Positions 57 through 24,666 of a stretch of DNA of 64,000 bases are shown here, in pieces (within the stretch, counting starts at the first letter, position 1; each line of letters begins with the position of its first letter). Source of the stretch: Cupriavidus taiwanensis (GTDB taxonomy: Bacteria; Pseudomonadota; Gammaproteobacteria; Burkholderiales; Burkholderiaceae); contig NZ_LT976853.1 of NCBI RefSeq assembly GCF_900249755.1, positions 2,019,274 to 2,083,273 on the forward strand. The letters run 5' to 3'. The notes under the pieces are model-generated. The model was not told the origin of the DNA, ran no database searches, and saw nothing but the letters and a program-made list of their open reading frames with translations. The translations under genes and the position numbers were made by a program.

Positions 57-73
57 AATCATTCCCACTCGAT
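57..73. other. Left attachment site, remnant of guaA 3' end
   Basis: AATCATTCCCACTCGAT matches 15 of 17 bases of the sequence at the end of intact guaA (27,901-27,917). Read on the minus strand it still encodes IIEWE followed by a stop, against TIEWE-stop in guaA. Target-gene duplication at the two ends is expected for integrases that enter the 3' end of a gene. The two mismatches suggest that one copy came with the element from another host. Confidence 0.85.
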
Positions 74-157: not shown

Positions 158-421
158 TCAAGAGGATGAACTCTGCCTGCGCTGGTGCCGGGCAATGGCC
201 TCTTCCAGAGTCTCCCCGGGCTGCCATCCGTACAGGTCGCGGACGCTCTTCGTTCTGGCATGGCCGGGGGGTTTGAACTCGTAGCCGGCAGCGGCCATCT
301 CGGCGGCCATGTCCTCGGTGATGAAGAACGGTTCGTTTTCTTCGTGCAGTTTCATGCTGACACCATAGCGACGTTCTAAAAACCAGAAGTCTATCCACCC
401 CCCTCCCAGCCGATCAGTCAA
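158..421 (-). CDS. Small hypothetical protein, last gene of the defence-like operon
   Basis: This 87-residue protein is of unknown function. Its ATG overlaps the stop of the preceding AlbA_2 gene as ATGA, so it is probably translationally coupled. An internal Met at residue 23 (MKLHEENEPFF) is an alternative start. The sequence is acidic and soluble, with no membrane segment or motif that I recognise. It is the island gene closest to the left att site. Its position suggests an accessory subunit or antitoxin-like role in the operon, but nothing in the sequence proves this. Confidence 0.6.
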   Translation of the reverse strand: MTDRLGGGWIDFWFLERRYGVSMKLHEENEPFFITEDMAAEMAAAGYEFKPPGHARTKSVRDLYGWQPGETLEEAIARHQRRQSSSS

Positions 422-1593
422 GAACTTCCGGCCGGCTCCAGCAAGCTGGGACGCGCCACGATAGCCTTGAACAGATTGCCGGACCGATCATCGATGAGTT
501 CGATCTGCGGCCATGCCCTCAGTGAGCGCAGCAGGCCGCTACCCAATCCGCGATAAGGCAGGAGCTTGGCGGCAAAGGACGCCAGGATGGGGTTGCGCAT
601 ATTGGAGTTGCCGGCCTTGATGTTCTCGATAGTCAGGTTGTTGGGCAGGTGGCCAGGGCTGATGATCTCGACACGATCCGCGAAGACCAGTACGCGGATC
701 GGCGCGCTGACGAAGTAGTCGCGGTGAATGAGGGCGTTGGCGACCAGTTCTTCCCAGACGATGCGGGGAATCTCAGGCTGCCCCTGGGAGTTGAAGCCCT
801 GCTCGCCCTGCGCGGCGCGGGTGTTAGCGACGATAAAGCCCAGCGTCTGCTGGAACACGTCGGCCAGCTTGCCGACGATGTCGCGGCTGTCGATGTAGCG
901 TTCGTCCTCAATCTGGGTGCCGACAAAGGCGACGGCCTTGACGACGAAGGCGGGTAGCGCGTAGTGCGGTGATTTGGCGAACAGCAGACCGCCCGCCACG
1001 TTGAGCTGCCCCTGGTTCATCAGGTTCATGTTGGTCAGCAACTGCGGCAGCGGCTGGTTATGCTGGGCGAGCGGCTCACCGAATTGCTGCTCGAAGAAGG
1101 TTTCGAAATAGGGCATGTCCACATCGCCCGCGCTCAAGCCCGCTACGGGCGTTTCGTCGGCGTGCACCAAACCCGCCTGCTGGAACAGGCGCTGCAATTC
1201 CTCGCGCGAGGTGGCGCGGCGCTTGTCCGAGCCGTTCTTCACCCAAATCGCGCCGTTCTTGTCCATGTAGGGCTTGTTGACGCCCTCAGCGATAGAGAGC
1301 ACCAGCACCGTGCCTGCCGGGTGAGGCACGTTTTCCGTGAGCGGGTTCACGGCGGGACGCACGACCTGCGAGGCCACGTTGGCGATGAGCATGTTGAGAC
1401 GAGCAACGTCGGCGCCGGATAGACCGCGCACCGAACCGTCGTCGTTCACCCCAATGAAGATGCGACCACCAGCGGTGTTGCTGAAGGCAACGATCTCTGC
1501 TGCCAAGGCGTCGGCATTGTTGATGTCCGTCTTGAACTGCTGCCGACTGTCCTCGCCCCGGCTGAGCAGGTCGATCAGCTCTGTGGTTTCCAT
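418..1593 (-). CDS. AlbA_2 (Schlafen-like) domain ATP-binding protein
   Basis: A 391-residue protein. Residues about 1-130 match the AlbA_2 / divergent AAA_4 fold often annotated as a putative DNA-binding domain: ESRQQFK-like start (here DSRQQFKTDI), then EIVAFSNTAGGRIFIGV and the IWVKNGSDKRRAT strand. The C-terminal part (about 265-385) looks like the HATPase_c_4 region (WEELVANALIHRDY, GLGSGLLRSL). Such proteins act as regulators or as components of phage-defence operons. The gene overlaps the PHP-ATPase gene by 19 bp at its start and the next small gene by 4 bp at its end, so it is co-translated in the cargo operon. The biochemical activity cannot be read from the sequence. Confidence 0.8.
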   Translation of the reverse strand: METTELIDLLSRGEDSRQQFKTDINNADALAAEIVAFSNTAGGRIFIGVNDDGSVRGLSGADVARLNMLIANVASQVVRPAVNPLTENVPHPAGTVLVLSIAEGVNKPYMDKNGAIWVKNGSDKRRATSREELQRLFQQAGLVHADETPVAGLSAGDVDMPYFETFFEQQFGEPLAQHNQPLPQLLTNMNLMNQGQLNVAGGLLFAKSPHYALPAFVVKAVAFVGTQIEDERYIDSRDIVGKLADVFQQTLGFIVANTRAAQGEQGFNSQGQPEIPRIVWEELVANALIHRDYFVSAPIRVLVFADRVEIISPGHLPNNLTIENIKAGNSNMRNPILASFAAKLLPYRGLGSGLLRSLRAWPQIELIDDRSGNLFKAIVARPSLLEPAGSS

Positions 1594-4244
1594 AGGTTGT
1601 AGACCTCTTTGCGACGGTTGAAGGCTTCCTGGCCTCCTTCCATGATGTTGATGATGGCGTCCTGCACCGGGCGGGCGTCGATGCTGCCGCTTCGCGTGGC
1701 GACCTTCTCGTCCTGGTATTGGCAGGCGTGCACCTGTTCCGCGTCACCCAGCACCGGGAAGTTGGCGTTGTGGGTGGCGAAGATGAATTGGGCGTGAGGC
1801 TTCATTTCCCGTAGCAGCTTGATCACATCGTCGTAAATGGTCTGGTTGTCCAGATCGTCTTCCGGTTGGTCGATGATGATCACGTCGTTCTGGCGTTGAC
1901 TGAGCACGTACAGCAACAGCGCCGAAGCGCGCTGCCCGAGAGAGTGGTGCTTCAACTCTTTGCCGCGATAGCGGATGACGAAGCGGTTGGGCACCTGCCA
2001 GGTGACGAAATCGGTCAGGTTCTGCATGAAGGTCTTTTCGAAGACCTCGGGGGTGCTGCCGGCCTTCGCCAAGGCTCCCGGCAGGGCACGCAGGAGGCCG
2101 CCGAAATCGGCATAGTCCTCCATCACTGCGCGCAGCGTGGTTTCGCGAATGTTGCTGCCCTTGAAGAGCTGCTGCATGAAGCTGATGGCGGCTTCCTTGT
2201 CGCCCTTGAAGTCCGCTTCGATCTGCAGGGCGGTGTGGCCAGCGTTCACGCGGTCCAGCTCTACCTTGATGGTGTTGAACTCGCGCAGCCATAGTTCATT
2301 GAGTTTGTCGATCTCGGCAAACAGCGCGTCGCGGATGCTGGTCTGCTGTGATTCCTGCTTGGCCAGCGCCTCCAGCATTTGCTCCGCCTTGGTTTTGCGC
2401 TGCTGCTGGGCCAGGAAGTCGTCCGGCTGGATGGCAGTCATGCCGGTTTGCTTGAGCTCCTGAGCCAGTTGGCGCTCGACTTGTGCGAACTCCTCCTGAA
2501 GGCTCCTGCTTGCGCCTTCAAATTCGCCCTGTTTGGTCTTGAGGCGAGCTGCAATGACGTTCGCTTCTCGCTCGATCTGCTTGAGCTGATCGACCTTGGC
2601 AACGAGGCTGGAGAACTCAGCGTAGTAGGCCGTGAAGAAATCCGGGTTCTGCTTGGAAACGTAGCTCGTTGCGTTCCGCAGCTCGTCCTCATGCTCGGCA
2701 ATCAGACTTCCTAGAGCGAGGATGAAGCTGTCTGCCCGCTCCATCATGCGCGCGAGCGCTGTGGCGTCCTGCTGGAAGCCAAGTCGCTTTTGGAGCTTAT
2801 CGGCGACACCGTGCTCCGCGAACTTGGTCAGACGGAAGTTGGCATCATTTAGTTGGGTCTCGAAGTCGCGCTTGAGTTCGGCCGTGTTGCTGAGCTTGAG
2901 CCAGCGCTGAGCAGCGTCACGCACGCGCTGGCGTTGAACCTCTATTTCGTCACGCAGCACACGCAGCTTCTCGCCAACCAGCTTTTCCACCAGATCGGTC
3001 TCGAAGCCTTCGCCGGTGCTGGAAAGGTCCTTCTGGCCGAAGTAGATCGGACGGCGCAGTACGGTCTCCCGGATCGACACGCCGGGTTGCAACTTGCCGC
3101 CCAGATAGACATTCGGGGCTTCGCGGAAGATGCGGGAGATGGTGAATTCCTGTCCGTACACGTCACATGCTGTCAGCGTCACCTTGCCGCCGCTGCCAAG
3201 GGTATGGCGGATCAACTCATCCTTGTACTTGGTGTCCTGCGCCTTCTCGCCGCGTGGAATGTCGAGGGCGTAGCGTACTGCCTCCAGGATGGATGATTTG
3301 CCGCTGCCCCGGATGCCGATCAACGTGTTGAGTTCGGAAGAGAAATGCAGCACTTGCCCATCGAGGATGCCGCCGTCGAAGCGGATGCTGCGGATGTGCG
3401 ACGCTTGATGTTTGGGCGGCTCCATGGCTACCCGCCCAGCGGGATCGCTCAAGGCAAACTTGACCGCCTCGAAGGACAGTTCGCCCAGCTTCAGGTAGCT
3501 GGCTTTGCCTCGACCGATTTCATCGACACTCTTAGGGTCGCTGCCTTCCAGTTCGGCGGGGTACCAGCTCTGTAGCCAGCTTTGAATCTTGGTGCGGCAG
3601 GGTTTGTCTTTGCCTGCGCCGTCGTGCGTGCGTACCTTCTGAAAAGCCAGCGTTCTGCGTCGGAAGAACTCGTTTTGCCCCAACTCAGTAAGCCGGCCGC
3701 CATCCAGCTCCGCCCACAGGCCACTCGGGGCTTCGACATGGGCGAAGACAAGGAAGAAGTCCCGGTGATAGCCTTCCAGCTTCTTGATGGTCTCCAGAAG
3801 CGACCATGAAGTGCGCCCGTTCTCCTGCTCGTACTGCGCGGGCGTTTTACCTTCGAATGCGCTGGTCAGAAAGGGGTTGATGTAATTGTGTTCATCGATC
3901 CATTCGTCGGAGAACACAACAAGCGTGTGGATGCCATTAGCCCCGTCATTGACCGACAACTCAACGCCTGGCAGCAGCGCAATACCCTTCTTCTGGGCCG
4001 TCTTGCGCAGTGCTTTGAATTCTTCGAAGTCGAACTTGTTGTGGTTGGTGATGACGCCCAATCGGATGTCCGCTTTCTCCAACGCATCCACATAGTTGCT
4101 GTTGTAGAAGTTGTCATCGCCCGTGAACTTGAATTCTCGGTCCGCTCGGGTATGCAGATGAAAGTCAGCACGGACCCACTGCGCCCCTTCTGCAAAGACC
4201 ATGGATCGAGCCTCTGACTGCTTCGGTCGCAGACTTTCCATCAT
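1575..4244 (-). CDS. PHP-domain SMC-like ATPase (TrlF / PpL type)
   Basis: An 889-residue fusion. The N-terminal PHP phosphoesterase domain shows DFHLHT at 27-32, then TNHNKF, a LLPGVELSV strand and VFAHVE, all expected metal ligands. From about residue 300 it is an SMC/RecF-like ATPase: Walker A GIRGSGKSS, a long Glu/Gln-rich coiled-coil region, Walker B IIIDQPEDDLD, and the H-loop ATHNANFPV. This architecture is annotated as the TrlF family and matches the single-gene PpL anti-phage protein of the Gao et al. 2020 survey as I recall it. The start overlaps the GIY-YIG stop (ATGA) and is preceded by AAGGATGA. Likely role: nucleic-acid sensing ATPase with a nuclease or phosphatase head. Confidence 0.85.
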   Translation of the reverse strand: MMESLRPKQSEARSMVFAEGAQWVRADFHLHTRADREFKFTGDDNFYNSNYVDALEKADIRLGVITNHNKFDFEEFKALRKTAQKKGIALLPGVELSVNDGANGIHTLVVFSDEWIDEHNYINPFLTSAFEGKTPAQYEQENGRTSWSLLETIKKLEGYHRDFFLVFAHVEAPSGLWAELDGGRLTELGQNEFFRRRTLAFQKVRTHDGAGKDKPCRTKIQSWLQSWYPAELEGSDPKSVDEIGRGKASYLKLGELSFEAVKFALSDPAGRVAMEPPKHQASHIRSIRFDGGILDGQVLHFSSELNTLIGIRGSGKSSILEAVRYALDIPRGEKAQDTKYKDELIRHTLGSGGKVTLTACDVYGQEFTISRIFREAPNVYLGGKLQPGVSIRETVLRRPIYFGQKDLSSTGEGFETDLVEKLVGEKLRVLRDEIEVQRQRVRDAAQRWLKLSNTAELKRDFETQLNDANFRLTKFAEHGVADKLQKRLGFQQDATALARMMERADSFILALGSLIAEHEDELRNATSYVSKQNPDFFTAYYAEFSSLVAKVDQLKQIEREANVIAARLKTKQGEFEGASRSLQEEFAQVERQLAQELKQTGMTAIQPDDFLAQQQRKTKAEQMLEALAKQESQQTSIRDALFAEIDKLNELWLREFNTIKVELDRVNAGHTALQIEADFKGDKEAAISFMQQLFKGSNIRETTLRAVMEDYADFGGLLRALPGALAKAGSTPEVFEKTFMQNLTDFVTWQVPNRFVIRYRGKELKHHSLGQRASALLLYVLSQRQNDVIIIDQPEDDLDNQTIYDDVIKLLREMKPHAQFIFATHNANFPVLGDAEQVHACQYQDEKVATRSGSIDARPVQDAIINIMEGGQEAFNRRKEVYNLWKPQS

Positions 4245-5452
4245 GGTTCATCCTTATAGTTAGTCCGCGCGTAGCCCACCAGTCGAGCGGTCTGCGGGTC
4301 ATAGATAAACTCGGTGATCGATCCATCTCGAATGCGCTGAACCGCCTCGTCGATCACATGAAGTGGCACTAGGAACCATTCCTCAGGCTGCACAGGATGA
4401 CCGAAGCGGTCGTTGATCGTGATGTTCAACCGCGCGGGCGCGAACAGTCTGTGGAACAGGTTCTCCATCCGGGTGCGGTTGACGCCCGCGAGCTTGTAGG
4501 TCGCTACCACTTCGACCTTCGCCAGCAGGTAGGTGGAGTCGTGTTCGGCGTTGGCAATGCGCGTCTCCACCCTGCCCCCGGTCACGCCCATCTTGTGGAT
4601 GATGTCGCGGTGCTGCGCGACATAGGGATGATCGGAGAGGGAGCGCAGGACGTAGATCGTGCCGCTTTCGACATCATCGGCCTCAAGCTCGCCGCCGAAG
4701 GAGAGTTGTCCGCTCTCGGGCGAGGCCAGCCGCCGCGCGGCGGGGTCGTTGTAGAAAGCGCGCTGGAGCGAGCGCAACAGCAGATTGCTTTCGGTGCCGT
4801 TGGAGAAGATGAGGCGCAGGCGGCGGTCCACTTCCCCGGCGGTGGTTTTCAGCGGTTCGCCGACCTCTGCGACGTAGAGCGTGATTCCATCGAGAACGAA
4901 AAAGTCCCCGGCCTCAATCGCGCGGCGGCCCGCCTCTATGGGCTGGGACTGGCGCAAGCCGGTCTTGACTTCCGTCGCTACGCGCTCGAACAGTGGCTTG
5001 AACGCCTCGAAGTCTTCGCAAGGCTTGCGATCCGCGATCTCCTCGGCCGCGCGCTTGTCGGCGCTGGTGCGGACATGGCGTAGGACCGTGATGTCGTCTG
5101 CGTCGGCTACGCCCGCCAGCTCGGCGGCCAGGTCGTCGATGTCGATGGCTTCATCTGCCGAAGCGGCAACGGTAGGCGCCCCGGCGAGCAAGCTCTGACA
5201 GTCCAGCGGCTCCAGCAGGGCGCGGCAGTCCGGGAGCGCACGCAAGCGGTCCAGGCGCACGGCGTAGAGGCGCTCGAATATGTAGCGACCCTCACCATGC
5301 TGCGGCGCACGCCCGTGCTTCTCGGTGAAGCGTTGGATTTCCTCGAAGCCCGCGATGACGCGCTCCTCACTGGCCGGCCGTCCGGCCTTCGCCTCGGGCG
5401 GTGCGAACTCGGCAAGCTCCGCAGCGAGTTCGTCAAGATCGGAGTTACTCAT
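4241..5452 (-). CDS. GIY-YIG nuclease family protein
   Basis: A 403-residue protein. I chose the ATG at 5452 (MSNSDLDEL) over an upstream ATG at 5518 because GGAGGGG sits 6-7 bases upstream and the start then overlaps the helicase stop by only 8 bp. The C-terminal 140 residues hold a GIY-YIG fold of the T5orf172 type: GTIYVLRSL near 264, KMGVTGGRVETRI with the catalytic Arg, MENLFHRLF with the catalytic Glu, then EEWF. The second Tyr of the family motif is replaced (KMG). The N-terminal 250 residues are acidic helices of unknown fold. Being between a helicase and a PHP-ATPase, it is probably the nuclease of the system; nuclease activity is inference. Confidence 0.8.
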   Translation of the reverse strand: MSNSDLDELAAELAEFAPPEAKAGRPASEERVIAGFEEIQRFTEKHGRAPQHGEGRYIFERLYAVRLDRLRALPDCRALLEPLDCQSLLAGAPTVAASADEAIDIDDLAAELAGVADADDITVLRHVRTSADKRAAEEIADRKPCEDFEAFKPLFERVATEVKTGLRQSQPIEAGRRAIEAGDFFVLDGITLYVAEVGEPLKTTAGEVDRRLRLIFSNGTESNLLLRSLQRAFYNDPAARRLASPESGQLSFGGELEADDVESGTIYVLRSLSDHPYVAQHRDIIHKMGVTGGRVETRIANAEHDSTYLLAKVEVVATYKLAGVNRTRMENLFHRLFAPARLNITINDRFGHPVQPEEWFLVPLHVIDEAVQRIRDGSITEFIYDPQTARLVGYARTNYKDEP

Positions 5453-7499
5453 AGCGCCCCTCCGCCTTGAATCGCATAAAGGCGGCCGCGCCTTCGGCCA
5501 TGCGTCGCTCCCAGGCATCCTGGGAATCGAGTGCAGGAATGCGTCCGCGCTCCTTCTTGAACTGAACGGCGCGAACAGCCATCTCCTTCGCCTCGTCCGG
5601 CGTCAGACTCGTGCGCTTCGCCGAGATGGCCGCCGCAACCTGCTTCAAGCTGTCCTCGCTCATGGTCTTCGCAAGGATGGCGTAGGCTTCGCCAAAAGGG
5701 TTGATGCGGTCGATCAGGTCGATGTCCAACTCGCGCACGTCCATCGCAAAGCGGCGCACGCCGTCGATCAGGGCGGTGTTGGGTGTTCCATCGCTCTCAC
5801 CTTCGGTCACCAGCCGCTTGGCCTGCTGCGTGAGGTTGAGGGCAGCAATGGCGTGCTGACGCACGGCCTCCTGATCTTCGGCGTCAAGCTCGGGATATTT
5901 GTCCTTGATGATCTTGCCCATGCGAACCTGCGTCAGTTCCTCGGGCACCAGCTCCTCATCGAACAGGCCGCGCTCGATGGTGGGCTTGTCCTGCACAAAG
6001 GCCGCAATGACTTCGTTCAGGTCTTCCTGACAGATTCGCGCCGCCTCCTTGCTCTTGGGCTCGGCGAGGCCCTTGATCTCGATCTGGTAAGCCCCTGTCT
6101 GCTCATTGACACCGACATTGCAACGGTCCGCGTCGTAGCCACCCTCGCCGTAGTTAAATCCCGGCGTCGGGCCGCTGTCGGGGTTCTTGGGCTTGAACTC
6201 GAAGCGCGGAGCTAGAACCTGCTCCATCAGCAGGCTTGCCGCGATGGCCTTCAACGTATCGTTGACGGCCTCGGTGACAGCTTCCTCCGCCGCATCCGGC
6301 TCGGCGATCAGGTTGGTGAACCTCGCGCGGGTCTTGCCGGGGGCGTCGCGGGTAGCTCGGCCGATGATCTGCACGATCTCGGTCAGGCTAGCGCGGTAGC
6401 CCACGGTGAGCGCATGTTCGCACCAAATCCAGTCGAAGCCTTCCTTCGCCATGCCCAGCGCGATGATGATGTCCACATGGTCGCGGTTGTTCTTCTGCGC
6501 CGGGTCTTTGAGCGCGGCGGACACGCGGTCGCGCTTGGCGGCATCGTCATCGACGAGATCGGCGATGCGCAGCACGCGGCCATCGGGGCGCTTGACACGT
6601 TGGAAGCCGGTCGCAGGGTCGATGCCCTGCCATTCACCCAGCGCCTCGATGATGTGCTCCACTTCCCGCATCTTGTCCTTCGTGCTCTCGCGCGAATTGA
6701 CATTCGGGATGTGAATGATGGTCTTCTCGGCGGGATCGAGGACGTTGAGGATGTCATCGACGTAAGGCCCGCTGTAGAAGAAGTAGCCGATGTCGAGTTG
6801 CTTGAGGTACTCGTAGCCGTTGAGCTGCTCGTAGTAGGTGTAGGTGACAGTATCGAACTTCGACTCATCCTGCGGCGCGAGCACGGCCTCGGCGTCGCCA
6901 CGGAAGTAGGAGCCTGTCATGGCGACGATGTGCGTCTTGCCCCGCGCGAAGAACTGCCCCAGGTGCAAGCCGAGCTTGTTGTCCGGATTGGCCGAAACGT
7001 GGTGGAACTCATCGACCGCGATCAGTCGGTCGTCGAAAGCCTCCACGCCGTAGGCATCGACCGCGAAGCGGAAGGTCGCATGGGTGCAGACCAGCACCTT
7101 GTCGTCGCCTTCGAGGAATGCGCCCAGCGACTTGACCTTGCCGCCGTTGTCGTTGCCCGGCGCGTTACACAGGTTCCACTTGGGTTCGACGTGCCAGTCG
7201 GTCCAGAAGCCGTACTTCGACAGCGACTCGTCGTTGAAGCTGGCACCGATGGACTTCTCCGGCACGACGATGATGGCCTGCTTCAAGCCTTGGTTCTTCA
7301 GCTTGTCGAGTGCCACGAACATCAGCGCACGGCTCTTGCCCGATGCGGGCGGCGACTTGATGAGCAGGTATTGCTCGCCCCGCTTCTCGTAGGCCCGCTC
7401 CTGCATGGGCCGCATCCCAAGCGCATTGGCCTTGGTCGACGCACCGTTGCGGGCGTAGGTGACGGAAACGGACGGTACGGACTTGATCTTGTCGCTCAT
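5445..7499 (-). CDS. DEAD/DEAH-type SF2 helicase
   Basis: A 684-residue superfamily 2 ATPase, with motif I SPPASGKS at 49-56, motif II VDEFHH at 162-167, motif III MTGS at 194-197, and motif VI QIIGRATRD in the second RecA domain. It resembles the translocase subunits of type I/III restriction systems and other defence helicases. Residues beyond about 420 are a family-specific C-terminal extension. No nuclease motif is visible within it, which fits with the nuclease being supplied by the next gene. Start and stop overlap the neighbours (ATGA with the methyltransferase; 8 bp with the GIY-YIG gene), implying fixed stoichiometry. Confidence 0.85.
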   Translation of the reverse strand: MSDKIKSVPSVSVTYARNGASTKANALGMRPMQERAYEKRGEQYLLIKSPPASGKSRALMFVALDKLKNQGLKQAIIVVPEKSIGASFNDESLSKYGFWTDWHVEPKWNLCNAPGNDNGGKVKSLGAFLEGDDKVLVCTHATFRFAVDAYGVEAFDDRLIAVDEFHHVSANPDNKLGLHLGQFFARGKTHIVAMTGSYFRGDAEAVLAPQDESKFDTVTYTYYEQLNGYEYLKQLDIGYFFYSGPYVDDILNVLDPAEKTIIHIPNVNSRESTKDKMREVEHIIEALGEWQGIDPATGFQRVKRPDGRVLRIADLVDDDAAKRDRVSAALKDPAQKNNRDHVDIIIALGMAKEGFDWIWCEHALTVGYRASLTEIVQIIGRATRDAPGKTRARFTNLIAEPDAAEEAVTEAVNDTLKAIAASLLMEQVLAPRFEFKPKNPDSGPTPGFNYGEGGYDADRCNVGVNEQTGAYQIEIKGLAEPKSKEAARICQEDLNEVIAAFVQDKPTIERGLFDEELVPEELTQVRMGKIIKDKYPELDAEDQEAVRQHAIAALNLTQQAKRLVTEGESDGTPNTALIDGVRRFAMDVRELDIDLIDRINPFGEAYAILAKTMSEDSLKQVAAAISAKRTSLTPDEAKEMAVRAVQFKKERGRIPALDSQDAWERRMAEGAAAFMRFKAEGRYE

Positions 7500-10282
7500 G
7501 CGTTGGCTCCCGCTTTGCGCTTCTTGCCCTTGGCTGGTGCAGCCGAAGCGGTCATCTTGGTATAGAGGTCAAACAGCTTTTCCAACCGCTCGGTGTCGTT
7601 CTTGAAGCGCCGACCGATGTAGACGCGCTCCAGCACTTCGTCGTTGCGATCATGGGCGGCGCGCAGGTCGGCGGGCATGTTTTCGGGGTCGTACAGGTCC
7701 GCGATGGTCGCGGGAAAGTGATGCTCCCGCGCCAGCAGGATGTCCTCCGCGCAGCGAGTGAGATCGGCCTTGTTTTTCTCGGTCAGCGTCGGCACCGGAA
7801 ACGTGTTCCAGCCGAGGGTGTTGGAGTAGCGGTAGCGCGTTTCCAGCTTGCCGCAGACGGTGGCGATCCATACAAGATGCAGGCGCGAGGCAATGAGCGC
7901 CATGTTCCATAGAGGCGCGTCGTACAGGCCATACGCAGCATTGGAAATAATGCCACCTGTTGGGAGCAGCCCAACTGGAAGATACGGCCGAGACTCGCTC
8001 GAATGGATCGGAACGATGATTGACTGGTTGCCCGGTTTGCCCTGAATCTGCCGGAATCTGTGCGGGTACTGCGCAGCAGGGCGCGTTTCCTTCGCCTTGC
8101 TACTTTCCCGAAACTCCCTCACCTGTTCAAAGCGGAGAGCAAGGCTCGGGACGGAACTGGCCTCGCTTTCGTCAGCATCAGTGACCCAAATGCAAACCCG
8201 CGGCGAACCCTTGATGAACTCATCCGAACCAAAGTAGGGCCGCAGGAATTTTTTAGCAGTCGGCGACTCACGGGTGATCTGCCGCGCCTCATCGGGCGAC
8301 AAGATCAGATTTCCGCCGTCTGTGGGCTTGTTGCCCCAGTACATGTCGGGGCGACCCGTTGGCGCTCTACTTGCGGCATCAACGTAAAGATTTGGTCCGG
8401 GCACTATGTATGCGTTGATGTTCGGAACGAATTTCTCGATGACCTCTTCACCATCCGAGGCTTCGAAGAGTCGTGCCCCCCTACCTGTATCGGTGGTCAG
8501 ACCAATGATCAGGACGGTGACGCCAGCATTGTGCGCAGCCAGGTTGCGCCATTTAAACGATGAGTAGGCAAAGAAGATGCGTGACGAAGCGTCCAGGAGC
8601 AGCGGCCAGAACATGTGGACGAGCTGCCCTTGGCAGATTGAGTTCGTCGCAACGAAGGCCGCTTTGGCCGTCTGATGTTGCATGAACTCATGCGCTTTCC
8701 AAAACCAGCCCATTACGTAGTCGAACGACTTCCAGTATTGACTATGGCCTTCGAAGAGCCACTTGAGGTCGGCTTTCTGCTCCGGAGTTTGGGAACTCAG
8801 ACCGGCGTAAGGCGGGTTCCCGCAAATATACGTCTCGCCGCCTTCGTTCTCGAAGTCGATCTCAGCCTGATCAAGCGGTGTTTGCAGAAGATCGTCATAA
8901 ACTAGCTTCACCCCTGAGCCGCCGACATCCATTAAGCTCAACCAGTCAAGCCGCAACGCATTGCCGCAGGTGATCCAATTCTCGCTGCGCAAGGGCAGAA
9001 ACTCGGCCAAGGCCAGCTTCTGCCCACGATAGAGCACGTCGCACTGGTACTCAGCGATAACCAGCGCAAGGCGTGCAATCTCTGCCGGGAAGTCACGCAC
9101 CTCGATTCCGCGAAAATTCGTGAGCGGGATAACCGAACACAAGTCAGGTTCGCCTCGTCGCCTGTTGATCTCGGCCTCGATGGCGCGCATCTCCTTATAG
9201 GCGATGACAAGGAAGTTGCCCGAACCGCAGGCCGGATCGAAGACCCTGATCCTTGCCATGCGCTTGCGCAGGTTCAGCAACATGCGAGGGTTATCGCCTG
9301 CCTCTTCAAGCTTGGCCCGCAGGTCGTCGAGGAACAGCGGATTCAGCACCTTCAGGATGTTGGGGACACTGGTGTAATGCATCCCCAGCTCGCCGCGCTC
9401 CTCGTCCTCGGCGACAGCCTGGATCATCGAACCGAAGATGTCCGGGTTGATCTTGGTCCAATCCAACCCGCCGACGTGCAGCAGGTAGGACCGGGCGATC
9501 TTGCTGAATCGCGGCACTTCGTCGCCACCAGAGAACAACTGCCCGTTGACGTATGGGAAGTCTTCGGCCCATCGGGGAATCTTGGCGGCGGCCCGGTCCT
9601 CGCGCTTGGTGTTCATGGTGCGGAACAGCGTGGCGAGAACTTCGTGCGTGTTCGATGAGTCCCTGGCGCTCATCTGCGCGACGGTTTCAGTGAAGCGGCC
9701 CTTGCCGACAAAGATGTCGGTGTCCTCAGCAAAGAAGCAGAAGATCAGCCGCGCCATGAGGTTGTTCATGTCGTGGCGACGCTCCGCCGTGCCCCATTCG
9801 GGGTTGTCCTTCAGCAGTTCGACGTAGAGTCGGTTCAGGCGGCTGGTGGCCCGGATATCGAAGGCGTTTTCGCTGATCTGGCGGACAGTGCTGATGCCCG
9901 CCAGCGGCAGAAAGAAGCCGAAGTGGTCCGGGAAGTCCTTGAAGGCGCAGGCAACGGTCTCGCCGCTGGTCAGGTCTTCGGCCTCGAAGTCCACCCCGTC
10001 CGTGGCGAGGATGAACTTCGCCTTGGCCTTGGCCGTCGCCGGGCTGGCCTTGAGAGCGGCCAGCGTCTGCGTCACCCCCCCGGCGTCGCAGGTCAGAATG
10101 TGGATGTTGCTGGTCTGGAGAACACCGCTGAGGTCGGACTTGTTCGACGCCCCGGCGCGCAGGCGCTTGATGGTCGTCGCTTTGTTGCCGAACGCCTCAA
10201 GGAAGGCATAGGGGAACTCCGCACGGTCGAACGGCTGCTCCGCGAGGTCGGTGATGGCTTGTTCGATTTCTACGGCATTCAT
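7496..10282 (-). CDS. MmeI-like class I DNA adenine methyltransferase
   Basis: A 928-residue protein with the domain order of MmeI/type IIG-like enzymes: N-terminal region, helical domain (about 130-330), gamma-class methyltransferase, then target-recognition and C-terminal domains. SAM-binding motif I FDPACGSGNF lies at about 348-357 and the catalytic NPPY at 489-492, typical of N6-adenine methylation. I do not see a convincing PD-(D/E)XK nuclease motif in the first 130 residues, so cleavage is probably delegated to other subunits. It is the first large gene of the operon, 58 bp after the small HTH gene. Likely role: self-marking and target recognition for the system. Confidence 0.85.
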   Translation of the reverse strand: MNAVEIEQAITDLAEQPFDRAEFPYAFLEAFGNKATTIKRLRAGASNKSDLSGVLQTSNIHILTCDAGGVTQTLAALKASPATAKAKAKFILATDGVDFEAEDLTSGETVACAFKDFPDHFGFFLPLAGISTVRQISENAFDIRATSRLNRLYVELLKDNPEWGTAERRHDMNNLMARLIFCFFAEDTDIFVGKGRFTETVAQMSARDSSNTHEVLATLFRTMNTKREDRAAAKIPRWAEDFPYVNGQLFSGGDEVPRFSKIARSYLLHVGGLDWTKINPDIFGSMIQAVAEDEERGELGMHYTSVPNILKVLNPLFLDDLRAKLEEAGDNPRMLLNLRKRMARIRVFDPACGSGNFLVIAYKEMRAIEAEINRRRGEPDLCSVIPLTNFRGIEVRDFPAEIARLALVIAEYQCDVLYRGQKLALAEFLPLRSENWITCGNALRLDWLSLMDVGGSGVKLVYDDLLQTPLDQAEIDFENEGGETYICGNPPYAGLSSQTPEQKADLKWLFEGHSQYWKSFDYVMGWFWKAHEFMQHQTAKAAFVATNSICQGQLVHMFWPLLLDASSRIFFAYSSFKWRNLAAHNAGVTVLIIGLTTDTGRGARLFEASDGEEVIEKFVPNINAYIVPGPNLYVDAASRAPTGRPDMYWGNKPTDGGNLILSPDEARQITRESPTAKKFLRPYFGSDEFIKGSPRVCIWVTDADESEASSVPSLALRFEQVREFRESSKAKETRPAAQYPHRFRQIQGKPGNQSIIVPIHSSESRPYLPVGLLPTGGIISNAAYGLYDAPLWNMALIASRLHLVWIATVCGKLETRYRYSNTLGWNTFPVPTLTEKNKADLTRCAEDILLAREHHFPATIADLYDPENMPADLRAAHDRNDEVLERVYIGRRFKNDTERLEKLFDLYTKMTASAAPAKGKKRKAGANA

Positions 10283-10340
10283 GGGCGTGCAGCCCCCTCT
10301 CGGGGCGAGGCCGCCTGGTTGCTATCGTTTTTCGGGGCGC

Positions 10341-10541
10341 TCATGTCTTGTCCTGCGTTTTCTCGGCTATCTGCGCGGCAATCCAGCGATCCAACTCGCT
10401 GCGACGAAACCGCCAGGTGCCGCCCAGCTTGAATCCCGGTATCTCCCCCTGCTGGGCCAGCCGGTAAACGGTCTTCTTCCCTGCCTTGAGGTAGACCGCC
10501 ACTTCATCCAGCGTGAGAATTTCGCTATCAGGTTGGTTCAT
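10341..10541 (-). CDS. Small MerR/excisionase-type HTH protein
   Basis: A 66-residue DNA-binding protein of the HTH_17 (excisionase) family: LTLDEVAVYLKAGKKTVYRL helix-turn-helix followed by the wing GGTWRFRRSELDRWI. It heads the cargo operon, 58 bp before the methyltransferase start, and lies far from the integrase. It is therefore more likely to be the operon's own regulator than the island excisionase. A CCAAAGTTTGG palindrome upstream at 10,579-10,589 is a possible operator. Confidence 0.8.
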   Translation of the reverse strand: MNQPDSEILTLDEVAVYLKAGKKTVYRLAQQGEIPGFKLGGTWRFRRSELDRWIAAQIAEKTQDKT

Positions 10542-10870
10542 GTCAGGCGGCTCGCTTGGTGTCGCGCGGCGAAGTCTTCCAAAGTTTGGCCAAGTTTACC
10601 ATCTGATCCACCCAAGTGAACCCCGAATCTCATGTGCGCGAAGCCATGGATTCGGCCGGCGCCATGCGTTGCGGCGGGCTCGCGGCACCGGCTGGATGGC
10701 AAGGCCATGTGCTTTAGCCACCAGGTCGTAGATGGTTTACGCCAAGAAGGTGGTCGGCGTGTCTTCTTCCGGGGAAAACACGCAACGTAGTACCCTTTGG
10801 CCTTCACAGCCGCGCTCTCTGTGGCCTCATCTGGATGAGACGGGCTAGGCAAATCAGCGTGAGGTGTGCG
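10542..10870. promoter_or_regulatory. Divergent intergenic region with possible operator
   Basis: This 329-bp gap separates the minus-strand cargo operon from the plus-strand antitoxin-like pair, so both promoters should be here. The 11-bp palindrome CCAAAGTTTGG at 10,579-10,589, followed by a second half-match CCAAGTTT, lies about 40 bases upstream of the HTH gene start. I found no convincing open reading frame; the rest has no structure that I could interpret. Confidence 0.4.
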
Positions 10871-11239
10871 ATGGGCAGGAAGGAAACCGAAGAAGCAATT
10901 GCAGACAGCCGCGCCGGCCGTATCTCGGGGCGGTTCGCCACAGTCGCCGAGCTGCTGGCCGACCTGAACGCTGACGACACCCCGAACATTCAGCAGGGCA
11001 GCGCCAACGTCTATGCCGACCTGGGCTATCCCGACGCCGGCGAAATGCTGGTCAAGACCCGACTCGTCACCAAGATCGGCGAGGCCATCAAGGCGCAACA
11101 GTTGTCGACCGAGCAAGCGGCTACGCTTCTCGGATTGACGCCGGCCGCGCTGCACGAGCTGCTGACCGGCCGCTTTCGCTCGCAATCGGTCAATGACCTG
11201 GAGCGCCTGGCATCCATGCTTGATGAGGCCAGCCGATGA
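10871..11239 (+). CDS. Mosaic antitoxin: RelB-like tail fused to XRE/HigA-type HTH
   Basis: A 122-residue protein starting at ATG 10,871, preceded by GAGG about 9 bases upstream. Residues 1-35 resemble the C-terminal half of RelB-type antitoxins (GRFATVAELLADLNADD). Residues about 45-118 form an XRE helix-turn-helix of the kind found in HigA-like antitoxins (VYADLGYPDAGEMLVKTRL, LSTEQAATLLGLTPAALHEL). The stop overlaps the next start as ATGA. No toxin gene is adjacent. It may be a functional orphan repressor or a recombination product; I cannot tell which. Confidence 0.7.
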   Translation: MGRKETEEAIADSRAGRISGRFATVAELLADLNADDTPNIQQGSANVYADLGYPDAGEMLVKTRLVTKIGEAIKAQQLSTEQAATLLGLTPAALHELLTGRFRSQSVNDLERLASMLDEASR

Positions 11240-11595
11240 CATGCTCGAAGAACCTGGAAAACTGGCTGCATGAGAAGGTCGGCCCGGCCTATGACGCCTT
11301 GAAGGCCGACCCGGCCCGCGCCGTCACGCCTGGCCAGGTGCGCTACACCCTGGCCGAGCTGCTGGCCGAGGCCGAAGCCGCCGGCGTGTATCCACTGCCG
11401 CCGGAACAACGCGAATGGGTAGATGCGCCGGCCGTTGGCCGTGAGCTGACGCCTTTCGACCCGGCCGAGACGCTGACCTCGGCCGAGGCGATCAGGACCT
11501 TCCTGGCCGAAGCCAAGGCCACAGCCGACCCGGCCTATATCGAACACGCACAGGCCGTCGCAGCGCGGGCGAAGGCCATGCACGGCATCGAGTAG
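11236..11595 (+). CDS. Mosaic antitoxin-like protein (RelB/ParD-type head, HI1420-type tail)
   Basis: A 119-residue protein coupled to the gene before it by an ATGA overlap. The first 40 residues (LENWLHEKVGPAYDALKADP) look like the N-terminus of RelB/ParD-family antitoxins. Residues about 70-118 (LTPFDPAETLTSAEAIRTFL, then DPAYIEHAQAVAARAKAM) resemble the N-terminal half of the HI1420-family addiction antidote. It stops where that family would continue into its HTH, so the tail looks truncated. Function is unknown; DNA binding of a truncated HI1420 head is unlikely without a partner. Confidence 0.6.
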   Translation: MTCSKNLENWLHEKVGPAYDALKADPARAVTPGQVRYTLAELLAEAEAAGVYPLPPEQREWVDAPAVGRELTPFDPAETLTSAEAIRTFLAEAKATADPAYIEHAQAVAARAKAMHGIE

Positions 11596-16423: not shown

Positions 16424-16654
16424 CTACGCGGCGCCGAGTGACTGCCGCACCGCGTCCAGGGCCTCGCGAAAGTCGGCAGGTGTCGCCTGGCCCGTCTCGG
16501 CCTGGTAAAACACGACCATGAAAGCGTTCGCCACGGCCTCGGCGAGCGGCCCGAGCTGCCGCGCCGCGTCCTGGTCTAGCCAGTCGAGCGCGGCGAGTTG
16601 CACGGCTGCATGATGAACGGCCTGCGTTGCATTGGTAGGATTCAGGGTTGCCAT
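16424..16654 (-). CDS. Small hypothetical protein at the end of the trb group
   Basis: A 76-residue, Ala-rich helical protein (MATLNPTNATQAVHHAAVQL). It is preceded by GAGAGGTG, a plausible ribosome-binding site, and lies 62 bp after the TrbL-tail-like gene in the same direction. I recognise no family. Its place suggests an accessory gene of the transfer module. Confidence 0.6.
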   Translation of the reverse strand: MATLNPTNATQAVHHAAVQLAALDWLDQDAARQLGPLAEAVANAFMVVFYQAETGQATPADFREALDAVRQSLGAA

Positions 16655-16716
16655 GATTCACCTCTCTAACAGGTGGGTTGTGGAAGTGTCGGCCGGCCCC
16701 ACGCCGGCCGACGCGC

Positions 16717-16995
16717 TTATCGGCTGCCGGTGCCGTAGAAGCCGGCGGCCTCGGCCAGCGGCGTGCTTCTCGCGCTGCTGCCGTAGCTGCTGGCATTGCC
16801 GCCCGACCTGGCCGCCAGCTTGGTGGCCTCAATGACGGGCGGAGCAGGTCGATCAACAAAGGCCGCAACTTCTGCCGCCGGGTCTGCATCAGTCGATTGA
16901 TCGTCGACCGGCTCAACCTCACCCGCCTGCGCCTGGCGCTGCTCGGCAGCGGCAACGTCCAGGCAGTCGAAAAATCCTCTCGGCGTCATCGTCAT
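16717..16995 (-). CDS. Small protein resembling the TrbL C-terminal tail
   Basis: A 92-residue protein whose ATG overlaps the trbL stop (ATGA). Two stretches echo the TrbL tail: EVAAFVDRP against EVAAFANRD, and STPLAEAAGFYGTGSR against STPLGQAAGFYRSGSS. It has no membrane segment. It may be a duplicated and detached TrbL tail serving as a cytoplasmic partner; this is inference from the internal similarity only. Confidence 0.6.
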   Translation of the reverse strand: MTMTPRGFFDCLDVAAAEQRQAQAGEVEPVDDQSTDADPAAEVAAFVDRPAPPVIEATKLAARSGGNASSYGSSARSTPLAEAAGFYGTGSR

Positions 16996-21640: not shown

Positions 21641-21760
21641 CGGCAGCCTCGCAGAGCAGGATGCCCGTTGAGCGCCCCGCGCGAATAAGGGACAGTGAAG
21701 AAGGACAACCGGCTTGCCGGTGGGCCTACTTCACACATCCTGCCCGCCTTACGGCGTTGT
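21641..21760. other. oriT: IncP-type origin of transfer (oriT) with nic site
   Basis: The stretch is nearly collinear with the RP4/RK2 oriT as I remember it: GCAGAGCAGGA, CGAATAAGGGACAGTGAAGA, an ACCGGC-TT-GCCGGT TraJ-site hairpin (21,708-21,721), then TGGGCCTACTTCAC and ACATCCTGCCCG. The expected relaxase cut is between G 21,742 and C 21,743 in ATCCTG/C. It is adjacent to traJ in the same relative orientation as in RP4. Confidence 0.93.
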
Positions 21761-22917: not shown

Positions 22918-22978
22918 GGGGAGCGTTGCTACGGGTGAAGGGGAACGTTGCTACGGAGCTTGGGGAACGTTACTACGG
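22918..22978. other. oriV: Three 22-bp iterons, putative IncQ-like oriV
   Basis: GGGGARCGTTRCTACGG occurs at 22,918, 22,940 and 22,962, spaced exactly 22 bp. IncQ-type plasmids have 20-22-bp iterons bound by RepC. The array overlaps the 3' end of repC: the repC stop at 22,929 is inside the first iteron. Autonomous replication of the excised island would need this site to be functional. Confidence 0.75.
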
Positions 22979-23798
22979 GCTTCGGCCTGCCAATTTCCCA
23001 CTTCCCTGCCGCATACTCGCTGACCTTCCATCCCACGGTGGCAAGCTCGGCCAGAGCCTTGCGGGCCTTCTGGCGGCGCTTCTTCATGGCCTCGGCGTTC
23101 GCCTGGTCCGGCCAGACATAACCGGAAAGGGTATCCAGTTCCACACGCCCGGCTTTGCCCGGATCGATCCAGCCGCATAGCCGCTGGTGAATCAGACGGG
23201 CCGGGTCAGTCTGTAGCGCCCGCACCTCGGCCATCTCGATGCGGGTATACGGGCGACGCCCAAGAATCGCCTCTGCAATCTGAGGATTCAGCGCGACGAA
23301 TAGCCGTCCGTCCTCCTCGTCGAAGGCGTAGCTCATCAGGTGAAAAGACCTTTGCCTGCTCCCCTTGGTGACGACCACCGTCACGTTTGCCATGCGCAGC
23401 AAGCTCGCCTTGATCGCCCTGATATTGTCGCCGCCATCGGTCAAGCCGATTTCGCCTAGCAGGCTGGTCATACTCTCTCTCACGACCAGCGCATCCTGCC
23501 CTACCGCGTCGAACTTCGGCTCAAGGAATAGACGGAGTTGCTTCGGCAAGTCCGCTGTTGGCTCTGGCGTCAGGATGATGCCCTTCGGCCCTCCAAGAGC
23601 CACAAGACCTTGCAGCAGCCGCATGTCATCTGCGCCAAGAGGCTCGAATCCGACGAACCGCGCTAGTTCATTTTCGGCGTAGTGATACGTCACATCGAGC
23701 TTGAGCTTCTTCCGTTCGCCGCGCTTGAGACTGCGGAACAAGCCGGGGACCAAGCAGTGCATTGGATCGTGCCTGGCATGGGTGAGGTCAAAAGCCAT
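22929..23798 (-). CDS. repC: IncQ-type replication initiator RepC
   Basis: A 289-residue protein, like RSF1010 RepC (283 as I recall). Shared features are HARHDPMHCLVPGLFRSLKR, RGERKKLKLDVTY, EPLGADDMRLLQGLVAL, then LIHQRLCGWIDPGKAGRVEL and LSGYVWPDQA. RepC binds iterons and opens oriV. I chose ATG 23,798, preceded by GGAGGCGAGG; it overlaps the repA stop by 11 bp, so the two are coupled. The 3' end runs into the iterons. Confidence 0.9.
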   Translation of the reverse strand: MAFDLTHARHDPMHCLVPGLFRSLKRGERKKLKLDVTYHYAENELARFVGFEPLGADDMRLLQGLVALGGPKGIILTPEPTADLPKQLRLFLEPKFDAVGQDALVVRESMTSLLGEIGLTDGGDNIRAIKASLLRMANVTVVVTKGSRQRSFHLMSYAFDEEDGRLFVALNPQIAEAILGRRPYTRIEMAEVRALQTDPARLIHQRLCGWIDPGKAGRVELDTLSGYVWPDQANAEAMKKRRQKARKALAELATVGWKVSEYAAGKWEIGRPKPVVTFPKLRSNVPLHP

Positions 23799-24666
23799 CG
23801 CCTCGCCTCCGACCGTCACGTCCCTTTTCCTCATTCCGGCTGGCCACATACAGCTCCACCGGCACCAGCACGCCGCCGGCGTTCCGCATGTACCAGCGAT
23901 CAAGCGGCGTGGCGTCGTAGTTCTGCTTGCTGACGCCGAAACGCACGAAGAAGCCGCGCCGCTCATCGCCGATGGGCTGCCGGTCATGGGCGCGGTCGCT
24001 GAGGCGCTTCGCCTCGTCCTCAGTCATGCGGGCGACGTAACCGCACCACCTGGCGTTGTCGATCAGCGCGGACGCGCCACGCGCGGCCTGCTGCTGGTCG
24101 GTCTGCCCTTCGCGGGCGCTTCCTTTGCTGACGTGGTGCAGGTAGAGCACGGATGCGCCCGTGGTAGCCGCGACCTGCTCCAGCACGGCCACGAGGTGGG
24201 CCATGTTGCCGTTGCTGTTCTCATCGAGGGCGTGGATGCGGCTCAGGGTGTCCAGCACGATCAGCCTCGCCCCGGCGCTGTACTCGATGACGCGGCGCAA
24301 GTGAGCCTCGTCCATGACGTTCAGGCGCTTGCCCATGATCGGCTCAAGCACGAGGTTCTCGGCGATGGCTTGGCGGGCTGTATGCCCGAGGTGCTGGCCG
24401 ATGGCGTGAATGCGCCGGACAAGCGCGGGCGGCGGGTCTTCCCCGGCCAGATAGACCACGCGCCCGGTGTGTGCGGGGGCCAGGCCCACGAGGTCGCCGC
24501 CGGCAACGCTGCATGCGATGCTCATGGCCGCTTCCAGCGCCCAGAAGCTCTTGCCCGTGGCCCCTGGGGCGACGAGCGCGCCGACGGTTCCCGCGAGGAA
24601 GCCCGGCCATATGAAGTCCAGCACCGGCGGTTCGCACTCGAACGCCGCCAGGACGTCAATCGCCAC
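23788..24666 (-). CDS. repA: IncQ-type replicative helicase RepA
   Basis: A 292-residue RecA-fold hexameric helicase related to RSF1010 RepA (279 as I recall). Walker A APGATGKS lies at 33-40, then YLAGEDPP, Walker B LIVLDTLSRIH, and LYLHHVSKGSA. It unwinds DNA at oriV after RepC binding. In IncQ plasmids the third partner is the primase RepB; no repB is found in the island. It follows the small HTH gene by 3 bp and overlaps repC. Confidence 0.9.
   Translation of the reverse strand: MAIDVLAAFECEPPVLDFIWPGFLAGTVGALVAPGATGKSFWALEAAMSIACSVAGGDLVGLAPAHTGRVVYLAGEDPPPALVRRIHAIGQHLGHTARQAIAENLVLEPIMGKRLNVMDEAHLRRVIEYSAGARLIVLDTLSRIHALDENSNGNMAHLVAVLEQVAATTGASVLYLHHVSKGSAREGQTDQQQAARGASALIDNARWCGYVARMTEDEAKRLSDRAHDRQPIGDERRGFFVRFGVSKQNYDATPLDRWYMRNAGGVLVPVELYVASRNEEKGRDGRRRGDGF

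Follow-up and report, generated by a model that had tools for sequence, protein, structure and literature searches.

DnmA (YeeA), YeeB and YeeC of Bacillus subtilis form a gene cluster in which an MmeI-like methyltransferase (MTase) without a nuclease motif is followed by a superfamily 2 (SF2) helicase and a T5orf172/GIY-YIG protein. In the available parts of the source papers (PMC7261158, PMC9973331), DnmA methylates GACGAG, the gene order is conserved, and Morgan 2009 is cited for nuclease-less MmeI homologues which adjoin YeeB/YeeC-like genes and were proposed to form a type I-like restriction-modification (RM) system. Here we surveyed and analyzed a stretch of 64,000 nucleotides (nt) of the 5.95 Mb genome of Cupriavidus taiwanensis (contig NZ_LT976853.1), called the window at its full length, in which an operon of seven genes carries the same three genes in the same order. 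Unlike the B. subtilis cluster, the operon has in addition a helix-turn-helix (HTH) leader gene, the genes of a TrlF protein and of an AlbA_2 protein and a further small gene, and it sits on an element integrated at guaA. We read the locus as a mobile element with a DnmA-YeeB-YeeC-type RM core to which a portable TrlF-AlbA_2 backup effector has been added, with a probability of roughly 0.55.

The added pair also has described counterparts. A module which matches it by description, and is given no function in the available part of the source, is found close to RptR and, in four genomes, is flanked by hsdS and hsdR (PMC12255303). The names used there match the NCBI product names for AlbA_2 and TrlF, and the likeness is one of description only; the RM operons in that part of the source are of type I only, whereas the pair analyzed here is also found in DnmA-YeeBC, BREX, Eco57I-type and type III-like surroundings, and its leader gene here differs. 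Schlafen-family proteins with a minimal histidine kinase and a winged HTH domain have been linked to BREX and proposed as a backup effector (PMC12839542, available part). They resemble our AlbA_2 protein in having the AlbA_2 and GHKL-like architecture beside a methylation-based defence and differ from its clade, which has Gln at the aligned catalytic Glu; the words "PHP" and "TrlF" were not found in the main text of that source. PrrC and PARIS guard restriction (PMC12707154, available part). The likeness of the pair to PrrC (EcoprrI) and PARIS is that of an effector encoded in or recruited to RM or BREX operons, together with an ABC-type ATPase in PARIS; it is a likeness of operon embedding and not of sequence membership, and the effector fold is PHP here. 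The core, the pair by description in type I operons, and the Schlafen-GHKL proteins with BREX are thus already in print. In the open-licence PMC texts searched, TrlF-AlbA_2 was reported neither in combination with DnmA-YeeBC nor as a single pair which occurs with type I, BREX, Eco57I-type, type III-like and DnmA systems alike, and searches for the pair by name brought up no relevant paper.

The operon and its predicted restriction-modification core

Seven minus-strand open reading frames (ORFs) with the named domains had been read from the letters alone in an original prediction, and the ORF map and family searches reproduced both their positions and the domain calls (Table 1). The operon is real, with six coupled genes behind the small HTH gene, which is likely its regulator and is separated from the MTase gene by a gap of 58 nt. 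ATGA had been claimed at three junctions; it is present at two (MTase/helicase, 7496-7499; GIY-YIG/TrlF, 4241-4244), and the third 4-nt overlap, between AlbA_2 and the small gene whose start is uncertain, reads TTGA (418-421). The overlaps of 8 and 19 nt claimed for the other junctions were found again, the former between helicase and GIY-YIG provided that the latter starts at ATG 5452 (its longest ORF starts at 5518), and the latter between TrlF and AlbA_2.

The MTase has the motifs FDPACGSG and NPPY. No [DE]-x-K was found in its residues 1-170, and its first alignment to MmeI begins at residue 88. It was therefore not classed with MmeI (type IIL/IIG), which joins nuclease and MTase in one chain, as no PD-D/ExK motif was found near its N-terminus. 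The helicase, with intact motifs PPASGKS, DEFH and QIIGRATR, is the first gene downstream and the T5orf172/GIY-YIG gene is the second, and on these features the three genes are the known DnmA-YeeB-YeeC cluster, a predicted type I-like RM core. A domain shared by the helicase C-terminus and the GIY-YIG N-terminus was not convincingly found by pairwise alignment. The earlier view, in which the genes form a plausible split RM machine accompanied by TrlF and AlbA_2, is supported; the accompanying statement that the combination was unknown has to be narrowed, as its three-gene core is the published one.

The MTase also has an exchanged segment. DNA similarity to the locus of Pseudomonas chengduensis DSM 26382 (L060; loci are given by L numbers) is 93% from 11500 to 8808 of the window and 96% from 7828 to 58, with none in between. 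In L064, L086, L141 and L142 the similarity is interrupted at almost identical positions, which makes five relatives with sharp break points. At the protein level, each 50-residue block between 501 and 800 showed 17-60% identity to all of nine relatives, against 62-74% in block 451-500 and mostly 70-100% elsewhere. By these alignments the recognition region (residues about 460-810) has been exchanged between near relatives. Such a pattern would be expected of a working RM enzyme which changes its specificity, and is not in itself proof of restriction.

The core is widely spread. The helicase has matches in 264 plasmid records, of which 154 have a single place with 80% coverage or more; the best place reaches 90-95% identity in 1 record and 80-90% in 42. 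Further matches were found in 99 of 5,426 Escherichia coli genomes (blastn) and in 13 of 299 genomes of the family of the window, the window genome included. Forty-five helicase-anchored core loci outside the window were analyzed (6 annotated plasmid or E. coli records, all 27 viral contigs and 12 family genomes), a sample which holds near-duplicates such as L025/L026 and L043/L044. GIY-YIG was present in 42 of the 45 loci and the MTase in 37; most of those lacking one or the other lie near contig ends, and L047 and L049 look broken. Some loci have insertions between MTase and helicase, namely a PDDEXK nuclease (L024), a toxin-antitoxin pair (L023) and RhuM (L042 and L086). RhuM itself looks like a second portable gene (L086 5725-6735, L087 7737-8747, L042 7662-8651, L082, L099), placed in the MTase/helicase gap in DnmA-YeeBC loci and in the hsdM/hsdS gap in type I loci.

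The TrlF-AlbA_2 pair across different surroundings

TrlF was present in none of the 45 core loci. The pair is therefore an add-on to the core, and a single fixed system of six or seven genes was ruled out by this count and by the occurrence of the pair in several other chassis. The full form does recur. The search of gene neighbourhoods suggested at the outset found all seven genes in the same order in L059 (99.97% over 11,442 bp) and in P. chengduensis (L060), while L064 and L086 have MTase, helicase, GIY-YIG, TrlF and AlbA_2 with extra genes, so the operon is not confined to one genome. In L104 the core is followed by TrlF, inside which the contig ends.

Remnants were also found. In Xanthomonas bromi (X. 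bromi, L062) HTH is followed by TrlF without the core, and 34 nt resembling the GIY-YIG 3′ end precede TrlF; in Xylophilus (L063) the last 74 GIY-YIG codons are retained at 89%. TrlF matches of any kind occur in 32 of the 299 family genomes and close ones (at least 81%) only in the window genome and in G185, where TrlF is interrupted by an internal stop. From these sequences we infer that the seven-gene form was probably established in this lineage and is now decaying, and that the pair itself was inserted elsewhere. The start of an Eco57I-type MTase gene, its first 85 codons, stands on both sides of TrlF-AlbA_2 in L100 (9708-9962 and 13809-14063), with 90% DNA identity over 240 bp; this duplicated start is a possible scar of pair insertion.

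Genomes were scanned for relatives of TrlF with seven sequences. Of the 369 found, the best 80 were analyzed; because the window protein led the alignment from which the scan patterns were drawn, its close relatives are over-represented among these 80. A scan of IMG/VR with TrlF gave no relative. AlbA_2 follows TrlF directly in 75 of the 80 loci, and the exceptions are L104 and L105, which end at the contig, and L082, L098 and L106, which are without AlbA_2. The two genes overlap by 19 nt in 40 loci, 22 in 15, 13 in 12, 28 in 3 and 31 in 2, apart from two odd values due to the start-codon choice of the script and six unmeasured loci (the five without AlbA_2 and L067). Because all five lengths share one frame relation, the coupling of TrlF and AlbA_2 is conserved.

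We assigned the chassis labels manually, using tblastn results and ORF maps. A methylation-based system lies in the same gene run in 35 of the 80 TrlF loci (in 33 of them AlbA_2 was seen, the others being L082 and L104). Where the sequence reaches 3 kb or more upstream and 2 kb or more downstream, as it does in 40 loci, such a system was labelled in 24. Type I RM is the chassis in 17 loci (14 have HsdR ahead of TrlF or a variant, 3 have M-RhuM-S-TrlF), BREX in 7, DnmA-YeeBC in 5, and Eco57I-type and type III-like in 3 each. In the BREX loci PglX stands before the pair and BrxH and PglZ after it in L107, L111, L120 and L122, the rest having fragments. Weaker labels are those of L096 (an HsdR fragment), L118 and L132 (PglX alone), L088 (an MTase fragment at a contig end) and the type III-like loci L124, L134 and L138, which rest on one gene each, at 26% in L138; the type I genes of L094 look broken. 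In L111, L113 and L122, BREX and HmaA-type loci with the pair hold further, different AlbA_2 proteins within one cluster with it.

The IncA, IncC and IncFIA plasmids have the order HTH-hsdR-TrlF-AlbA_2-hsdS, with an AAA gene and hsdM next in the first two; the IncFIA stretch ends after hsdS. The gene which lies between hsdS and hsdM on the IncA plasmid (L053, 16023-17138; type I operon) encodes an AAA_13-type protein, whose match is confined to the C-terminal third of this Pfam family. In a quick LG+G4 tree of TrlF (79 rows, 44 without chassis label, no bootstrap), the six chassis labels require at least 11 changes among the 35 labelled rows. DnmA-type loci stand at two places among these rows, with L086 (Vreelandella) among type I loci.

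The TrlF model (mean predicted local distance difference test score, pLDDT, 83.4; predicted TM-score, pTM, 0.64) has a head pair of SMC/Rad50 type with long helices, for which Foldseek gave MukB, SMC, JetABC and Rad50. The first PHP match listed for its PHP domain was RNase AM (TM-score 0.61 by target length, 19% identity), and D27, H29, H31, D35, H68, E95, H106, H169 and E171 are conserved in 98% or more of the 79 rows. The original prediction had called this protein of PpL/TrlF type: the TrlF assignment stands well above its cut-off, and the Ppl one fell away at 152 bits against a cut-off of 1000. PADLOC gave similarity to LmuB and mad3. Membership in the methylation-associated defense system (MADS) was likewise considered, since the operon resembles it in joining an HTH gene which passes the MAD1 cut-off with an MTase and an SMC-like ATPase; the HTH gene alone fits, the MTase scores 11 bits against 720 for MAD2, and no other MAD equivalog was found by NCBIfam among the eight ORFs scanned.

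For AlbA_2 (pLDDT 79.5, pTM 0.58) the structure matches by Foldseek were 3lmm, the N-domains of SLFN5/11/12/13/14 and, weakly, GHKL-type kinases. In the available part of PMC5862951 the Schlafen RNase site of rat SLFN13 consists of E205, E210 and D248, of which E205 and E210, five residues apart, are essential. By alignment and spacing, the corresponding positions of the present clade would be E14, which is Glu in 69 of 70 proteins, and Q19, which is Gln in 70 of 70 (the window protein and 69 of the 75 loci, six with short or interrupted alignments being excluded). Four of five other AlbA_2 proteins at TrlF loci align at the Q19 position and all four have Glu there. The AlbA_2 RNase site may thus be altered, and because of this Gln, which is an argument from alignment only, the PHP site of TrlF is the likelier effector.

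Proposed working and alternative explanations

On the reading as an RM core with an added backup effector, the MmeI-like protein would methylate host DNA, giving N6-methyladenine at the site which its exchangeable recognition domain specifies. When it meets phage DNA without this mark, the protein would recruit or license the YeeB motor and the GIY-YIG nuclease, which together would stand in for the HsdR subunit of type I enzymes. A defence role of such a core is supported by Vibrio crassostreae (V. crassostreae), in which dnmA and yeeB deletions made the bacterium more sensitive to some phages (PMC7261158, PMC9973331, available parts). TrlF, a PHP nuclease fold on a Rad50/SMC-like ATPase, would act with its Schlafen-fold partner as second effector, triggered when restriction is blocked by an anti-restriction protein or by the DNA ends which restriction leaves, and would end the infection by nucleolytic attack. 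The pair is possibly a guardian like PrrC or PARIS, its mode of activation being suggested by operon embedding. Backup layers, Schlafen proteins included, were proposed for BREX, and Ocr, a DNA mimic, is described as an inhibitor of host restriction systems which also suppresses BREX (PMC12839542, available part), which would explain one module serving several chassis. In its widest and more tentative form, the proposal would make TrlF-AlbA_2 a restriction guardian tied to no one chassis, in which a PHP-nuclease/SMC sensor works with a Schlafen partner of altered catalytic site. The guardian would be fitted into type I RM, BREX, Eco57I-type, type III-like and DnmA-YeeBC operons, and would be set off by phages which disarm any of these systems or by an accumulation of DNA ends.

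Several observations weigh against this proposal. In B. subtilis, deletion of yeeB or yeeC left phage results unchanged and loss of dnmA left plasmid uptake unchanged (PMC7261158, PMC9973331, available parts). No recognised methylation chassis stands beside 45 of the 80 TrlF loci; 16 of these 45 have 3 kb upstream and 2 kb downstream and 29 do not, and the scanned neighbours of some are housekeeping genes, e.g. guaA. The pair is found without an adjacent chassis on a P. cerasi plasmid and in guaA islands. On the tree, loci with the same chassis label tend to group together (25 changes if the unlabelled rows count as a group, against a shuffled mean of 33.4, as low in 0 of 200), so chassis exchange is frequent but not free. 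Finally, the Gln at the aligned Schlafen catalytic Glu disfavours the simplest version, in which AlbA_2 is a tRNA cutter.

Some of these points fit a pair which is an independent anti-phage system, travelling with methylation operons or inserting into them without a functional link, an alternative we consider rather unlikely, though the strongest of the rivals. It would account for the pairs without RM genes beside them on the P. cerasi plasmid (91%) and the Yersinia ruckeri plasmid (a more distant one, 52%), for X. bromi without the core, and for those unlabelled loci whose neighbours are other defence genes (HmaA, LmuB, AbiU-like, PDC candidates, a NACHT protein). Further neighbours of unlabelled loci, of which a minority were assigned, include a resolvase and a peptidase. 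Beside two other TrlF genes, which are more distant (48-50%), no AlbA_2 is annotated. Against independence, the pair lies inside the operon in L080, L081 and L083-L085, with 4-nt overlaps on both sides to chassis genes (HsdR/TrlF and AlbA_2/HsdS), and four of these five operons start with a small HTH gene.

It is improbable that TrlF-AlbA_2 processes DNA ends made by restriction, in the manner of a one-chain SbcCD or Lamassu-type enzyme, and so destroys cut phage DNA without being a suicide device. Restriction systems make DNA ends, and the SMC/Rad50-like heads joined to a PHP domain in one TrlF chain, like its LmuB and mad3 similarity, would suit such a role; the standalone copies of the pair lack a dedicated supply of ends, the first PHP match listed is RNase AM, an enzyme which acts on RNA, and BREX is not known to act by plain DNA cutting. 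Yet nuclease activity of PglZ is cited in the available part of PMC12839542. That the core is a relic in which only the MTase works, as proposed for B. subtilis DnmA, fits the deletion results in that species and is very improbable in view of the intact helicase motifs, the recognition swapping beside a conserved helicase, the wide plasmid spread and the greater sensitivity of V. crassostreae dnmA and yeeB deletions to some phages (PMC7261158, PMC9973331, available parts).

With the backup-effector reading, the seven-gene operon is resolved into two testable units. One module across unrelated methylation defences suggests a common weak point and one interchangeable backup, and if true, guarding of the PrrC or PARIS kind would gain a general, mobile form and a new nuclease type. 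The copies with swapped recognition domains make direct DNA restriction by DnmA-YeeB-YeeC testable.

The element at guaA and neighbouring features

An element of about 27.8 kb is integrated at guaA and carries the operon at its integrase-distal end, because the integrase lies beside guaA, a copy of the guaA 3′ end lies at the other end, and similarity to L059, L060 and L062 stops at 58-59, the same point as this copy. The cargo end of a mobile island, as first proposed, is thus the right description of its place.

Table 1. Coordinates of the operon genes and of the element features in the window
Feature	Position	Strand	Evidence or remark
Small HTH gene (excisionase/MAD1-like)	10341..10541	-	HTH_17 5.5e-19; NCBIfam MAD1 82.4 bits, cut-off 80
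MmeI/DnmA-like N6-adenine MTase (YeeA/DnmA), without nuclease motif	7496..10282	-	All five MmeI domains; MmeI 5hr4 3.7e-149
Swapped target-recognition region of MTase	7828..8808	-	No DNA similarity to L060; flanks 93-96%
SF2 (ResIII/DEAD) helicase, YeeB-like	5445..7499	-	DEAD and ResIII domains; helicase motifs
GIY-YIG (T5orf172/MUG113) nuclease, YeeC-like	4241..5452	-	T5orf172/MUG113 domains; start ATG 5452 assumed
TrlF, PHP metallophosphoesterase and SMC/Rad50-like ATPase with long coiled coil	1575..4244	-	NCBIfam TrlF family ATPase 585 bits, cut-off 350
Schlafen/AlbA_2 and GHKL-like (HATPase_c_4) protein, TrlF partner	418..1593	-	SLFN_AlbA_2 PF04326 6.1e-20; HATPase_c_4; structure matches
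Small protein	158..421	-	Beside the pair in L059-L063 and L101
guaA	27903-29522	-	
Tyrosine integrase of the element, beside guaA	26392..27594	-	
Copy of guaA 3′ end (att-like), outer end of the element	59..72	-	

The element contains RepC, NikA-like, TrbL, Tn3 and IS3-like genes. A PtaRNA1 antisense RNA (16648-16718, plus strand) and a traJ-II RNA (21645-21745, minus strand) lie inside it, beside the RepC (22929-23987), NikA-like and TrbL genes; all these are plasmid-type parts in a guaA-integrated element. The ORF at 10538-11242 on the minus strand was rejected as a gene, having no family match and lying opposite a plus-strand HTH gene. Two small overlapping genes at 10835-11595 on the plus strand, divergent from the operon, encode an HTH_37 antitoxin-like protein and a protein of 119 residues, and the region up to 11500 is similar in L059, L060 and L062. 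The small protein at the end of the operon has weak relatives, below 60% identity, in about 2000 plasmid records; among the matches listed they are at about 40% identity, and some stand under recombinase-family annotations.

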